NCBI GenBank assembly: GCA_001823575.1
Contig: MHUW01000013.1
Location: 1-35,052, forward strand
DNA from: Candidatus Yonathbacteria bacterium RIFCSPLOWO2_01_FULL_47_33b
GTDB taxonomy: Bacteria > Patescibacteriota > Minisyncoccia > Phycocordibacterales > UBA1550
Reading direction: 5' to 3'
Length of the DNA stretch: 35,052 nucleotides
Positions 345-30,404 of the stretch are shown piece by piece (position 1 is the first letter of the stretch; every line of letters starts with the position of its first letter). Under the pieces are notes generated by a model. It saw only the letters and a list, made by a program, of their open reading frames with translations. It was not told where the DNA came from and did not search any database. Both the position numbers and the translations under genes were made by a program.

Positions 345-2510
345 ATGGAACAACTGCCGCAAAGACTATCCGTTGAAGAACTACATGATTTGTCCGATGA
401 AAAGAAGCATACGCGGGGTGCTTTGAGCGACCTCAGTGCGGAGAAAATGCCACAGGAAATGAGTGAGGATCTTTCCGAAGAACCTCGTGGAATTTTGGAA
501 ACCTTGAAAGAGAAATCACAAGGTCTCATTGAGTCCTACGGCGGAATATCAAAGGTGAAAGAAGCTCTCCGTGAACGGCACTCATTTGATGTTCTCTCCG
601 CACATTTTGAAAAAGATGCGGTGCAGAATCTCAAAGAACACACGGAGGCGAAAGAAGTGTACGATACGCTTGCCATCAAGCAGATCAAAAGGAATGTTTC
701 TCTCGGCGGGTCTTCACCGGTCGCGCAAAACATTCTCAACAGATATCAAGAAGGCGCACAACACGAAGAAGAAGCGCTTAAAACTATCCAAGAAAACGAG
801 CCGATCCTCGCTCGCGCGCACGAGCTTCTCTCGTACCAAGAGGGGCTGTCCAAAGAGGGGCACATCTGCCCGCTTCCTTCTACCGTCGGCTACATCAAAA
901 GCATAGAAGAACGAATGATTACTGGCAAACCCGTGTTCCTCCACGGAGCGACCGGCACTGGGAAGACTTCACTTGCTCGCTATGCCACAAAGGAGTTGAC
1001 GGGCAAGGATGCTGAAATGGTGTACTGCTCACCACAGTTTCGCGAACAGCAGGTATGGTCCACGACGGGGCTTCGTGCGACCGAAGACGGCAAGGGTGTG
1101 GAGACGGTCGTCATCTACGGTCCGCTCGCTCGCGCAATGCGTGAGGGTAAAGCCATCATTTTTGACGAGTTCACGACATTGCCCAAAGAACAGATGGCGT
1201 TCATCAAGGGGGTGTTCGGGGTAAAGATTGGCGACAAGATTACTGTTCCCGGGAATGGCGAAATCGCCGTACAAAACGGGTTCCAGATGATATTCACCGC
1301 CAATCTGAAGTCCGAGAAAAATCAAGAACGAAGCGACCTCCCTCCAGAAATGGCGAGTGAGTTTGAGCAGAACAATATGGAGATTGGGTATGCAAGCACA
1401 GAGGAAATGTATGACACGATACTCGCGCGTCTCATCGACCGTAAAGGAAACCTCACGCTTTCATACGAGGATTTGCAAGACACGCTTCCCAAGTTTGTCT
1501 CAGCTATAAAAGAAGTTCAGATTGCATACGCAGGTATCTTGCCCGACGACGAAGCAAAAAAACTCGGCGTAATGGAAGCCAATGGAAGAGTGCAGGGACT
1601 TAAAAAGTTTGTAATGAGCCAGAGGTCCATCGAAGCGATCCTTGAAAGATGGAATGTTGAACAGACGAGAAATGCCGATGCAAACTTCAGAAACTTTCTC
1701 GACGATGCGCTCCAGACAGGCATCACCTTCAAAGAATATCCGGAAGCAGATCGCGAGCTCGTCGCAAAGATATTCGCCACAAAAGGATTTTTGAGGACCA
1801 AGAGTGAAAGCGACCTCGGGCTCAAGAGTGGTTCACTCAAAGGGCTCCACTCAACAGGGCAATACGAAGAGGTAAAAAAGCAGACGCTTTCTATAAAAGA
1901 TGTTGCCACGCTGGACCCGTTTCACACGAGAAAATCCAAAGAGCAAGAAGAGGCTGAGTCATTTGTTAAGGAAGAAATAGGAACAGAATCAAATCCTGAA
2001 GAACTCGAGTCCACCATCGCTCGCGTCCGTGAAGCAGGATTCCTCGACGCGTCATTTGAAGGTAAAGAAACTCATCGCCTCGCTATTGAAGCACTCCCCA
2101 AAGAAGAAGCAATCGAAGCATATCGAAAGAGTGGTGGTGAAACATATATATGGGCAGAGCTCGAAAAGAACATGCCCTACACAACACCAAAGGCAGAAAA
2201 GCTCGATGTGATACTCCTTGGCTTTGGTAAATCGGTCACAAGTGATGAAGCTCTTGCAGAAATGGAGAGACTTGGTGTTCGCCCCCTCACCTACGAGGAG
2301 CTTATTCAATACGGTATCGTAAACCCAGAAGCTCAGAAGAAAAACCCCCACGTTGCATTGGGAAGTAAACATTCCCTGGGCGGCGGTCCTCGCGCTCCGA
2401 TCCTCCGCGTCGGCGACGGCGGGCGCGGCCTGTGCGCCCTCCGTTGGGGCGGTGGCTGGGGCGGGGGGGTGCCGTTTCCCCGTTGTCCGCAAGTAGTGCT
2501 TTGGCTTTAG
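345..2510 (+). CDS. MoxR-like AAA+ ATPase with DGR-diversified C-terminal domain (DGR target 1)
   Basis: Walker A GATGTGKT, Walker B AIIFDEF, MIFTAN sensor-like motif. The C-terminal ~150 aa are homologous to the 29702-30352 product and end in VR1. A +1 G shifts the last ~15 codons; without it the gene would stop at 2496 with ...WGGGCRFPVVRK*. Confidence 0.88.
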   Translation: MEQLPQRLSVEELHDLSDEKKHTRGALSDLSAEKMPQEMSEDLSEEPRGILETLKEKSQGLIESYGGISKVKEALRERHSFDVLSAHFEKDAVQNLKEHTEAKEVYDTLAIKQIKRNVSLGGSSPVAQNILNRYQEGAQHEEEALKTIQENEPILARAHELLSYQEGLSKEGHICPLPSTVGYIKSIEERMITGKPVFLHGATGTGKTSLARYATKELTGKDAEMVYCSPQFREQQVWSTTGLRATEDGKGVETVVIYGPLARAMREGKAIIFDEFTTLPKEQMAFIKGVFGVKIGDKITVPGNGEIAVQNGFQMIFTANLKSEKNQERSDLPPEMASEFEQNNMEIGYASTEEMYDTILARLIDRKGNLTLSYEDLQDTLPKFVSAIKEVQIAYAGILPDDEAKKLGVMEANGRVQGLKKFVMSQRSIEAILERWNVEQTRNADANFRNFLDDALQTGITFKEYPEADRELVAKIFATKGFLRTKSESDLGLKSGSLKGLHSTGQYEEVKKQTLSIKDVATLDPFHTRKSKEQEEAESFVKEEIGTESNPEELESTIARVREAGFLDASFEGKETHRLAIEALPKEEAIEAYRKSGGETYIWAELEKNMPYTTPKAEKLDVILLGFGKSVTSDEALAEMERLGVRPLTYEELIQYGIVNPEAQKKNPHVALGSKHSLGGGPRAPILRVGDGGRGLCALRWGGGWGGGVPFPRCPQVVLWL
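2375..2492 (+). repeat. DGR variable region VR1
   Basis: Aligned by hand to TR 2862-2978. Mismatches fall only at TR adenines (24 of 26 changed: 20 to G, 2 to C, 2 to T) plus one inserted G. Confidence 0.96.
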
Positions 2511-2861
2511 ACACTATGCTTTTGCTTTAAATTTTTGACTTTTGGTCGCGCTTCAATCGACACTGCGCGACATGATTTTGCAAAATCAAAAGTTTTTGGC
2601 ATGCTATATCTTGAGAGTAGATATAGCGTATACGGATAGTGATGTTTGTATGCCATCGAAATCAGTAGGCTATGGACGAGAGTTTTTGTGCGCATGTTGC
2701 ATAGAAAGAGTGTCTATAGTTTCTCTAAAAAAGAAATCTACTTGGCGCATACATGTTGGGTATTGTTATCCCAGTAGGTCATTCTGCTGAATGAGATACC
2801 GACTTAAATACAATGCTTGGTTGCGACTGGGCATGGTGGTCTGCACGCATATATGCGAAAT
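2510..2861 (+). ncRNA. Putative structured leader of the DGR template RNA
   Basis: No convincing ORF. Several stems, e.g. GCTATATC-ttgagagta-GATATAGC, TCGCGC...GCGCGA, GGTAT...ATACC, TCATTC-tgct-GAATGA. Confidence 0.45.
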
Positions 2862-2978
2862 CCTGGACGGCAATCCTCACGCTCCGATCCTCAACGTCAA
2901 CGACGACGAGCGCAACCTGAACGCCAACCATTGGGGCAATGACTGGGACGAGAGGTACCGTTTCCCCGTTGTCCGCAA
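2862..2978 (+). repeat. DGR template repeat (TR)
   Basis: Adenine-rich AAC/GAC/AAT codons; the non-A scaffold is identical to VR1; lies upstream of the RT gene; ends in the shared TTTCCCCGTTGTCCGCAA block (IMH-like). Confidence 0.96.
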
Positions 2979-2987
2979 CTTTATTTC

Positions 2988-3410
2988 TTACTCCCGCGCT
3001 TTTGCGCGGGAGTTTTCTTTTTCTGTTTGCGCAAGTATCTGGTTGTGCCAGCCACCGAGCATGCGCCCTACTTCGAAAAGCTTTTCAGAGAGCGCAATGA
3101 ACTTTTTTGCATCGAGTGCGTCGACTTTGTTTGCGACACGAAGGAGGAGTTTTACCGTGTCGAGTAGCTGAATTGCTTTTTGAATGTGAACGGTCTTGTG
3201 TTCCTTTTTTACAAAAAGTGCCGAGGATATATAGCACATGATTTCACACAAGAGAGAGTCTATTTTTGCACCGAGTGAGTAGCGGTGGATTTTTGGAAAG
3301 TGTAGAATGTAGGAATGCCACAAAGTATACGCAACTTCAATCTTGAGAATGAGGGGTGGGATGTCTGTGGGTATACGGGGGGGGGGTGGACATAAAGGAA
3401 AGTATACCAT
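2988..3410 (-). CDS. avd: Avd-like DGR accessory protein (four-helix bundle)
   Basis: HFPKIHRYSLGAKIDSLLCEIMCYISSALF...KAIQLLDTVKLLLRVANKVDALDAKKFIALSEKLFEVGRMLGGWHNQ matches the Avd/four-helix-bundle pattern; the start codon is uncertain. Confidence 0.82.
   Translation of the reverse strand: MVYFPLCPPPPRIPTDIPPLILKIEVAYTLWHSYILHFPKIHRYSLGAKIDSLLCEIMCYISSALFVKKEHKTVHIQKAIQLLDTVKLLLRVANKVDALDAKKFIALSEKLFEVGRMLGGWHNQILAQTEKENSRAKARE
2990..3013 (+). terminator. Strong hairpin immediately downstream of TR
   Basis: ACTCCCGCGC-TTTT-GCGCGGGAGT followed by TTTCTTTTT. Confidence 0.7.
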
Positions 3411-4320
3411 ACAGAATGTACCCAACGCCCGTTCTTTTGAAGAAATCATCTCATACGAAAATTTATTGCGCGCGTGGGAAGATTTTATAAAAGGAAAGCG
3501 TGGCAGGAGAGACGTGGATATGTTTGCTCGTACATTGTCAGATAACTTGTGGCAACTTCACTTTGATTTAAAGAATAGCACTTATGCGCATGGAGGGTAC
3601 CATGAGTACACTATTTGTGATCCAAAAAAACGTACGATACACAAGGCAAGTGTGAGAGACAGGGTGGTACATAGACTAGTCTACAATGCTCTCTATCGGT
3701 ATTTTGATAAGCGGTTCATTCATGACTCGCACTCATCGCGAAAAGGGAAGGGGACACACAGAGCGCGCGACAGGTTTCGGCTTTTTGCGCAGAAAGTTAG
3801 TAAAAATTATACAAAGCAATGTTTTGTCTTGAAATTTGATATACAGAAATGTTTTGCGAGTATTGACCAGACAACGCTTTTGGAAATTCTTAAAAAACAT
3901 ATTGCTGATGATGAGGTGTATGACATTGTTGCTATAATCATTGGGAGCTTTAAATGCGGGCTTCCGCTTGGGAACCTCACTTCCCAACTTTTTATCAATG
4001 TGTACCTCCACGAGCTTGATTGGTTTTGTAAACATACCATTCGCGCAAAATATTATTTGCGTTACGCTGACGATGTTGTTATTGTATCGGATGATGAAGA
4101 TGAGCTCGACGTTGCGTACAGAATAATCGCTGATTTTTTGTTAAGCAAACTTTATCTTACGACCCACAAAAAGAGTGTGGCTACCATTTACCAAGGGGTT
4201 GACGTGTTGGGCGTGATATTCTTCCCCCGATATGGTATTTTAAGGAGAAGGACGAGGGTGCGGATGAGGGTGCGAGAACAACATGGAAAATATCTTCAAA
4301 CAAGAAATGGCGCAGAATAG
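3343..4320 (+). CDS. DGR reverse transcriptase
   Basis: HKASVRDRVVHRLVYN, DSHSSRKGKGTHRA, LKFDIQKCFASID, GLPLGNLTSQLFINVYLHELD, YLRYADDVVIVSDD, GVDVLGVIFFPRYGILRRRT; the exact start is uncertain. Confidence 0.95.
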   Translation: MRMRGGMSVGIRGGGGHKGKYTIQNVPNARSFEEIISYENLLRAWEDFIKGKRGRRDVDMFARTLSDNLWQLHFDLKNSTYAHGGYHEYTICDPKKRTIHKASVRDRVVHRLVYNALYRYFDKRFIHDSHSSRKGKGTHRARDRFRLFAQKVSKNYTKQCFVLKFDIQKCFASIDQTTLLEILKKHIADDEVYDIVAIIIGSFKCGLPLGNLTSQLFINVYLHELDWFCKHTIRAKYYLRYADDVVIVSDDEDELDVAYRIIADFLLSKLYLTTHKKSVATIYQGVDVLGVIFFPRYGILRRRTRVRMRVREQHGKYLQTRNGAE

Positions 4321-28858: not shown

Positions 28859-28906
28859 CAGGTATCTACTTATAGCATACTATAGTACGCTATAAGTAGA
28901 TACCTG
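28859..28906. repeat. Near-perfect 48-bp palindrome, copy A
   Basis: CAGGTATCTACTTATAGCATACTATAGTACGCTATAAGTAGATACCTG, one mismatched pair. Confidence 0.93.
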
Positions 28907-28972: not shown

Positions 28973-29521
28973 TTACAAACCAAAGTGTTTTTTGATTGGG
29001 TCATCTCCCTCTAGCTCTTTAGCGGTAATTATTCGAATGTGACGGCGTACGCTGAAGCAGTCTGCCGCAAAATCAATTTCTTTTTTGCATGGGTAGGGGG
29101 TAATGAATACTGATTTTTGATACTGCACACACCCTAGTTTTTTAAGGGCTAGATTTATTGCCAGGCGAGCTGTGCGCTTGTCTTCAGGGATATCAAACAT
29201 AACGATTCTCCACAAACCATCCCATTTGGGTTGCTCGGCAATCTTCATTGAAAAAAGATGGTATCGCATAGCACGCACCTTGCCTGTTTCGGTGAGTATG
29301 TATTGTTCCTCGCCCGCAACCACTCTCTTTTTGATAAACTTACTTTCTTCAAGCCTTACCATAGATCTTTTGATTTTCCATTTATCCTTTGTATTTTTTG
29401 GATCAAAATATTTAAAAAGCTGCACCGCGTTCGGAGCAGTAACGGCGATAGTGAGAAACCCAACGACAAGGATCGTTGAAAGCAAAATCTCGCTGACTTC
29501 GTTTTTAGTAAATTTTTTCAT
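28973..29521 (-). CDS. PaaX-like regulator with Cas2-like C-terminal domain
   Basis: N-terminal TM and wHTH-like region (IKRSMVRLEESKFIKKRVVAGEEQYILTETGK); C-terminal DGLWRIVMFDIPEDKRTARLAINLALKKLGCVQYQKSVFITPYPC. Confidence 0.75.
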   Translation of the reverse strand: MKKFTKNEVSEILLSTILVVGFLTIAVTAPNAVQLFKYFDPKNTKDKWKIKRSMVRLEESKFIKKRVVAGEEQYILTETGKVRAMRYHLFSMKIAEQPKWDGLWRIVMFDIPEDKRTARLAINLALKKLGCVQYQKSVFITPYPCKKEIDFAADCFSVRRHIRIITAKELEGDDPIKKHFGL

Positions 29522-29546: not shown

Positions 29547-29592
29547 TACTATCTACTTATAGCATACTATAGTACTGTATAAGTAGATAGTA
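29547..29592. repeat. Near-perfect 46-bp palindrome, copy B
   Basis: TACTATCTACTTATAGCATACTATAGTACTGTATAAGTAGATAGTA; shares 26 contiguous nt with copy A. Confidence 0.93.
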
Positions 29593-29637: not shown

Positions 29638-29668
29638 TTGACGCGAGACTCGGGGGGGGGGCTATACT
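29638..29668 (+). promoter_or_regulatory. Predicted promoter with G10 tract in the spacer
   Basis: TTGACG - 19 nt including GGGGGGGGGG - TATACT, 34 nt upstream of ATG 29702. Confidence 0.65.
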
Positions 29669-29701
29669 ATAGGGATTAGTAATACGTAGCCACCAAATAT
29701 T

Positions 29702-30352
29702 ATGGAATCAGCACCGCAACATCATCGAGAGGGAATTCAGGAACTTTTGGATAAAGCGTATGACGAGGGTCACCGCGATAACGTCGCGATGAAAGAAGGT
29801 GAAGTAGTAGAAGAAAGAGTCGGGCATATGGATGACAAAGAAATGCATGGCAAGTCTTCACAGGAAAGAACTTTGAGTTTTCTTCGTGATAGGGGCTACC
29901 TCGACACCTCGTTTGAAGGAAAGGAAATCCACCACCTTGTCGTTGAATCACTCTCTAAAAAAGAAGCGTTTGATCGCTACTGCAGTAGCGGCAGGACATC
30001 TGTATGGGATGGGTTGGAAGAGAATATGCCCTACATGACGCCGGAAGGGACAACACTTGACGTGATGATTATGAAGTTCAACAAAGTCATTGGAAGCGAT
30101 GAGGCAATCACCGAAATGGCAACTCTTGGTGTACGCCCTCTCACTTACGAGGAACTCATCCAGTACGGTATTGCATACCCAACACACCAAGAAAAAGACG
30201 CTTTTAACGGGCTGGGAAGCAAACACACCTTTGAGAACGGCAATGTGCTTACCCCGCGTCTCGTCTTGAGCGGTGGCTATCGTGTGCTGTGTGCCAATTC
30301 TTGGGACAGCGATTGGAGCGAATGGTGTCGTTTTCCTGTTGTTCGCAAGTAG
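29702..30352 (+). CDS. DGR-target-like protein (paralog of the MoxR target C-terminus, carrying VR2)
   Basis: LRDRGYLDTSFEGKEIHHLVVESLSKKEAFDRY...LGVRPLTYEELIQYGIAYP...GLGSKHTF...WDSDWSEWCRFPVVRK* parallels the 345-2510 C-terminus. Confidence 0.9.
   Translation: MESAPQHHREGIQELLDKAYDEGHRDNVAMKEGEVVEERVGHMDDKEMHGKSSQERTLSFLRDRGYLDTSFEGKEIHHLVVESLSKKEAFDRYCSSGRTSVWDGLEENMPYMTPEGTTLDVMIMKFNKVIGSDEAITEMATLGVRPLTYEELIQYGIAYPTHQEKDAFNGLGSKHTFENGNVLTPRLVLSGGYRVLCANSWDSDWSEWCRFPVVRK
30234..30350 (+). repeat. Diverged VR-like region (VR2)
   Basis: Codon-by-codon alignable with TR/VR1 but with many non-adenine differences. Confidence 0.75.
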
Positions 30353-30363
30353 TGCTGAAAACA

Positions 30364-30404
30364 AAAAACTCCGCCGTTTTATGTAAACGGCGGAGTTTTT
30401 TGTT
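30364..30404 (+). terminator. Hairpin terminator after the VR2 gene
   Basis: AAAAAACTCCGCCGTTT...AAACGGCGGAGTTTTTTG. Confidence 0.75.

Follow-up and report, generated by a model that had tools for sequence, protein, structure and literature searches.

The window, that is, the whole stretch of DNA analysed here (35,052 nucleotides), is contig C13 of a 718,629-bp assembly in 22 contigs from a relative of Candidatus Yonathbacteria (Patescibacteria), and the protein discussed below likewise has its GTDB relatives among Candidatus Yonathbacteria. One of its genes, here called 'VR2', is preceded by a predicted promoter of the sigma-70 type with ten consecutive Gs (G10) in the spacer:

29638–29643, + strand: −35 hexamer TTGACG (TTGACA in two sister orthologues)
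29644–29662, + strand: promoter spacer of 19 nt, containing G10
29652–29661, + strand: G10, the candidate contingency tract, inside the spacer (the orthologous sites of two sister species have G8 and G10)
29663–29668, + strand: −10 hexamer TATACT, with one C between tract and box (TACAAT in orthologues)
29702 (ATG)–30352 (stop), + strand: 'VR2' gene, 216 aa, with a C-terminal C-type-lectin-like domain related to the VR1 protein
30360–30404, + strand: terminator-like hairpin 3' of the 'VR2' gene

The promoter lies exactly where the original prediction had placed it, with TTGACG, a 19-nt spacer that includes G10, and TATACT, and the distance from TATACT to the ATG at 29702 is 34 nt. It is absent from a standard promoter scan because such a scan admits spacers of 16–18 nt only. 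A homopolymer between the −35 and −10 boxes is the arrangement of the porA/fetA type, and Neisseria fetA and porA are the precedent for the spacer mechanism that the prediction had invoked as established (PMC5320596). In Neisseria, a spacer run of G or C determines by its length how far apart the −35 and −10 boxes lie, and thereby transcription (PMC5320596; PMC5084427). The 'VR2' promoter resembles those of Neisseria fetA (frpB), porA and opc in this respect. It differs in belonging to an uncultured member of the Patescibacteria and in preceding a C-type-lectin-like gene without a detectable signal or membrane family; moreover, its tract variation is known here between species, and we infer the effect on expression. 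Replication slippage at G10 would add or remove Gs and so change the distance between the boxes, which is 19 nt here and would be 17 nt at G8. Different cells of one population would then transcribe the C-type-lectin-like gene either strongly, or weakly or not at all.

Orthologous promoters support the candidate phase-variable promoter, including the predicted correspondence of G8 with a 17-nt spacer. In Yonathbacteria UBA12043 the promoter reads TTGACA-AGTGTTGTA-G8-TACAAT, with a spacer of 17 nt, and in Yonathbacteria UBA11698 the boxes and the left half are identical to these, with G10 and a spacer of 19 nt. Thus, the tract is retained in close relatives, and its length shifts by two bases between otherwise similar promoters, exactly the step from a 17- to a 19-nt spacer; this is a difference between species, each represented by one genome, and the lengths come from short-read assemblies with a possible error of one. 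The sister boxes, TTGACA and TACAAT, are sharper than TTGACG and TATACT of the window, and the leader downstream of the promoter (AGTAAT...) is likewise conserved among the orthologues. The assembly RIFCSPHIGHO2_02_FULL_44_14 has N9 in place of the expected tract and −10 box, the promoter of a more distantly related homologue (G015) has TTGACA and TATACT but no poly-G, and a search of IMG/VR for tract alleles of the 'VR2' promoter found none. Although a 19-nt spacer still serves some promoters, it is unlikely that this is an ordinary constitutive promoter with a fortuitously G-rich spacer drifting in length without function, since the tract has kept its place in sister species while differing in length by two.

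The order-wide enrichment of the −35/poly-G/−10 architecture also argues against such drift. Among 299 genomes of the order, the pattern TTGA-N7..15-G8-N0..2-TANNNT has 24 matches (23 distinct sites), compared with three for the reversed pattern, and the spacers of these promoter-plus-poly-G matches range from 15 to 21 nt. When 53 tracts were chosen without regard to promoters, eight were found to be surrounded by a −35/−10 pair scoring at least 9/12, against a mean of 0.59 and a maximum of four in 500 shuffles. TANNNT stands at offset 0 or 1 behind 12 of the 53 tracts, and further offsets have about one each.

At the other end of the window is a DGR (2375–4320) with an RT, Avd, a TR and a VR1 whose substitutions are adenine-specific, all of which, together with targets of the C-type-lectin type, are also features of the Patescibacteria DGRs of clade 2 (Roux et al. 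2021, PMC8144416). In its main text, the paper mentions neither phase variation nor homopolymers, slippage or promoters. The parts of the DGR are as follows:

2375–2493, + strand: VR1, the current target (24 of 25 substitutions relative to TR at adenines)
2862–2981, + strand: template repeat (TR)
2988–3449, − strand: avd (bAvd), on the opposite strand to RT
3349–4320, + strand: DGR-type reverse transcriptase (RT)
3377–3386, + strand: another G10 tract, situated where the 5' ends of RT (+) and avd (−) overlap (the orthologous site in genome G001 has G9)

The last 160 residues of the 'VR2' protein match the AAA-domain VR1 protein (49%), and the protein as a whole has no Pfam or NCBIfam match. 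Its AlphaFold2 model (pLDDT 80) has C-type-lectin domains as top PDB matches (best E 0.0096), and on these hits, weak in E-value and consistent in identity, the variable domain is predicted to have a C-type-lectin fold. Among 'VR2' orthologues the body is conserved and the C-terminal stretch divergent, as expected of a former DGR-target domain. The original prediction had taken 'VR2' for a DGR-related remote target, and this part of it must be abandoned. The 45 substitutions between TR and 'VR2' comprise 16 at TR adenines and 29 at non-A positions, far from a difference almost only at adenines; no TR matching 'VR2' was found elsewhere in the assembly; and two sister genomes that carry a 'VR2' orthologue (G008 and G003) gave no RT hit. 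On the strength of the substitutions and of the search for a TR in the assembly, we reject the idea that 'VR2' is a current remote target of the DGR in the window.

The + strand of the window contains exactly three runs of seven or more Gs, namely G7 at 2463–2469 (VR1), G10 at 3377–3386 (start of RT and avd) and G10 at 29652–29661, with a jump in length from 7 to 10; no C run of seven or more was found in the window. Thus, the prediction that all such runs lie in DGR-related loci is correct for the window, but it fails for the genome, where tracts also occur at non-DGR genes (two fibre-like paralogues, in the signal peptide, and a gene for an exported protein, in the promoter). The whole assembly contains 11 tracts of at least eight Gs, seven of at least nine and five of at least ten. 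Those outside the window are listed below, with gene names read from the translations unless a family search is named:

G9: promoter of an exported protein, TTGCCA-18-TATACT
G11: upstream of a histidine-kinase-like gene (two sister genomes, L094 and L048, share G11 at the equivalent site)
G11, L004:2023–2033, − strand: signal-peptide codons of an exported fibre-like paralogue
G9, L006:2062–2070, − strand: signal-peptide codons of an exported fibre-like paralogue
G10, contig C15: start of a second DGR RT
G8, four tracts: three in gene bodies (phosphoketolase-like, peptidyl-tRNA-hydrolase-like and a proline-rich stretch), one in a promoter spacer (TTGACT-16-CATAAT)

All seven tracts of at least nine Gs lie in promoters, upstream of genes or at gene starts, so that the genome does not show the many tracts at unrelated loci that would have spoken against the prediction. 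An order-3 Markov model, in which long runs were shortened in training, gives expectations of approximately 2.3 for G≥9 and 0.5 for G≥10, but this excess alone is weak evidence, because models that keep the runs or are of order 5 give quite different numbers. This dependence on the null model leaves some room for a constitutive promoter with a chance G run. Against it, similar tracts elsewhere in the genome occur where length decides the reading frame. In the two exported paralogues the signal-peptide codons are near-identical apart from G11 in one and G9 in the other, and the long ORF (692–707 aa, cut at the end of the stretch) exists only at 7, 10 or 13 Gs; both paralogues are therefore closed as assembled, at different lengths. 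We put the probability at about 0.78 that G10 at 29652–29661 is a contingency tract of a sigma-70-type promoter and one of a genome-wide set of poly-G contingency loci, to which the repeats at avd/RT junctions are related; slippage within populations and its effect on expression, both here and at the junction, are deduced from sequence comparison.

Two further observations concern the neighbourhood of such tracts. The histidine-kinase-like gene behind G11 (L003:2112–2300) is interrupted within the first transmembrane segment by an in-frame stop that the L094 orthologue lacks. At L041, L042, L047 and L092 the tract has a recurrent context, with a TTATCCACA-like box approximately 30 nt upstream followed by TTGC-Gn-CAACATAAAGG, and in sister genomes this context precedes genes for small proteins that are exported or membrane-bound.

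RT genes preceded by poly-G first surfaced in the order-wide promoter search. In a survey of positions −120 to +60 around the RT start, G7–G12 was found at the avd/RT junction of 65 of 90 RT loci (200 genomes of the order), and approximately 105 kbp of the same loci contained no other run of seven or more Gs. Beyond the order, the tract is present in all three loci of the class and in at least 11 of 22 loci sampled from the rest of the phylum, the latter being a lower bound because three of the 22 were imprecisely located. It was found in none of eight DGR RTs from IMG/VR, two of which have an imprecise RT start and loci without any G or C run of seven. It is extremely improbable that these tracts are sequencing or assembly artefacts, such as the spurious G runs that two-colour chemistry produces at the ends of reads. 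In the wider survey some tracts do lie at contig ends (G028:C27:1–9 and G010:C34:19–27), but those of the window are in contig interiors with both flanks conserved, and tracts recur at the same place in independently assembled genomes.

The junction tract coincides with the start of avd (bAvd), on the opposite strand to RT. Directly behind it, mismatches by codon position amount to 0.44/0.23/0.62. Tract lengths are spread evenly modulo 3 (23/22/20), and at 79 of 79 loci one or more of the three phases has an in-frame ATG in the 60 nt that precede the tract, many of these ATGs being the complement of a conserved RT His codon. GTG or TTG codons behind the tract, at about half of the loci, are candidate avd starts. 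On the RT side, an ATG lies behind the tract at 46 of 69 loci and a GTG or TTG at nine, and 14 have none. When 87 junctions were re-scored, 61 had poly-G and 17 were free of repeats; at the other nine the repeat was (GA)n, (CTGA)n or (TTGG)n, and one of these nine also had G8. The four repeat units, G, GA, CTGA and TTGG, are all indivisible by three, and the lengths cover all phases. The avd frame is joined to an ATG at only 18 of the 70 repeat-bearing junctions, compared with all 17 of the repeat-free ones, which were scored by a looser criterion (an ATG within the first 25 codons was also accepted, although nearly all had one near the RT start); the Fisher P value of 9e-9 is a guide only, because the loci share descent and are not independent. 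Thus, the place of the repeat is conserved, its length and type vary, and the joined frame is lost in most assembled alleles. The loci with (CTGA)n, (TTGG)n or (GA)n in place of poly-G are L105, L119, L122, L124, L136, L145–L147 and L149.

In the window itself, the in-frame ATGs of RT at G10 are at 3349 and 3361, and those of avd begin at 3449 and 3410, in each case ahead of the tract in the direction of the gene. RT and avd would both be joined to an ATG at n = 9 and n = 10, and neither at n = 11. The RT of G001, with G9, has an in-frame ATG 62 nt ahead of the tract.

TANNNT stands directly behind the junction tract at 22 of 56 loci, and a plain RT promoter spacer (Gn-TANNNT-7nt-ATG) is a possible reading of the junction. 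We prefer the avd-frame reading because avd is encoded there on the other strand and because other repeats replace the Gs. The repeat length would then decide whether avd has a start codon in frame, as it would for RT at some loci, so that avd, together with RT in one group of RTs, would slip in and out of frame. Avd is required for mutagenic homing in the Bordetella phage system, and the junction repeat would thereby switch the whole DGR. This arrangement suggests an on/off switch of DGR mutagenesis.

Two other explanations of the repeats bear on this reading. The first is that slippage of RNA polymerase or ribosomes at the avd/RT repeats gives a constant low level of product without any on/off switch. 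Transcriptional slippage is possible at long homopolymers, and avd is open and conserved behind the tract even though in 52 of the 70 assembled alleles no ATG is joined to it. We nevertheless regard this explanation as improbable, since (GA)n, (CTGA)n and (TTGG)n lend themselves more to replication slippage than to transcriptional slippage and the tract of the 'VR2' promoter, which lies outside the transcript, would be left unexplained. The second is that the G run acts as a structure (an RNA or DNA G-structure) or as the binding site of a regulator, and was selected for its sequence and not for slippage. The position is very constant at both the promoter and the DGR sites, and the first bases behind the junction tract are conserved as well. 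Such an element is very unlikely, because GA, CTGA and TTGG repeats at the junction share with poly-G only slippage with a unit indivisible by three, lengths run from 7 to 12 and are even modulo 3, the 'VR2' run lies between the −35 and −10 boxes and outside the transcript of that promoter, and the site has no Rfam element.

Translational contingency loci with intragenic homopolymers include HmbR and HpuAB of Neisseria and the G/C tracts of Campylobacter, and both promoter-spacer and intragenic switches of this type are best known from animal-associated bacteria. The two exported paralogues and avd are similar to these loci in having a frame-deciding repeat near the start of the coding sequence. 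The DGR junction repeat is different in that it sits where the 5' ends of two divergent genes overlap and in that its type changes between lineages (G, GA, CTGA, TTGG). No earlier description of a repeat at the avd/RT start was found, and the part of the literature that is open-licence in PMC yielded no prior report of phase variation in Patescibacteria or at DGRs.

On the strength of these comparisons we consider it probable, more so than not by a fair amount, that a stochastic switch acts on Patescibacteria DGRs through the avd/RT repeats, and that related poly-G promoters switch a lectin-fold paralogue of a DGR target and exported proteins. If so, only some cells, and not always the same ones, would undergo targeted hypermutation, which offers a testable explanation of how an organism prevents a mutagenic retroelement from acting in all cells. 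Conserved switches on a lectin-fold protein and on the DGR machinery would also unite on/off switching and targeted hypermutation, which are usually discussed apart.

Three minor features of the genome were also recognized. The G run of VR1 (2463–2469) has one extra G relative to TR, and the last residues are frame-shifted, with VPFPRCPQVVLWL replacing CRFPVVRK; A-to-G mutagenesis created the run, and slippage may have lengthened it. Other DGR pieces sit at contig ends, namely a second RT with avd (G000 C15:1–588), an RT fragment (C10:12–452) and the end of a VR-like gene (C1:3–209), so that two or more DGRs, fragmented in the assembly, are probably present in this genome. Finally, near-identical 40-nt palindromes (28863–28902 and 29550–29589) lie on either side of a PaaX/Cas2-like gene (28973–29521, − strand), and these may be its operators, because similar sites occur in the sister genomes G003 and G015.
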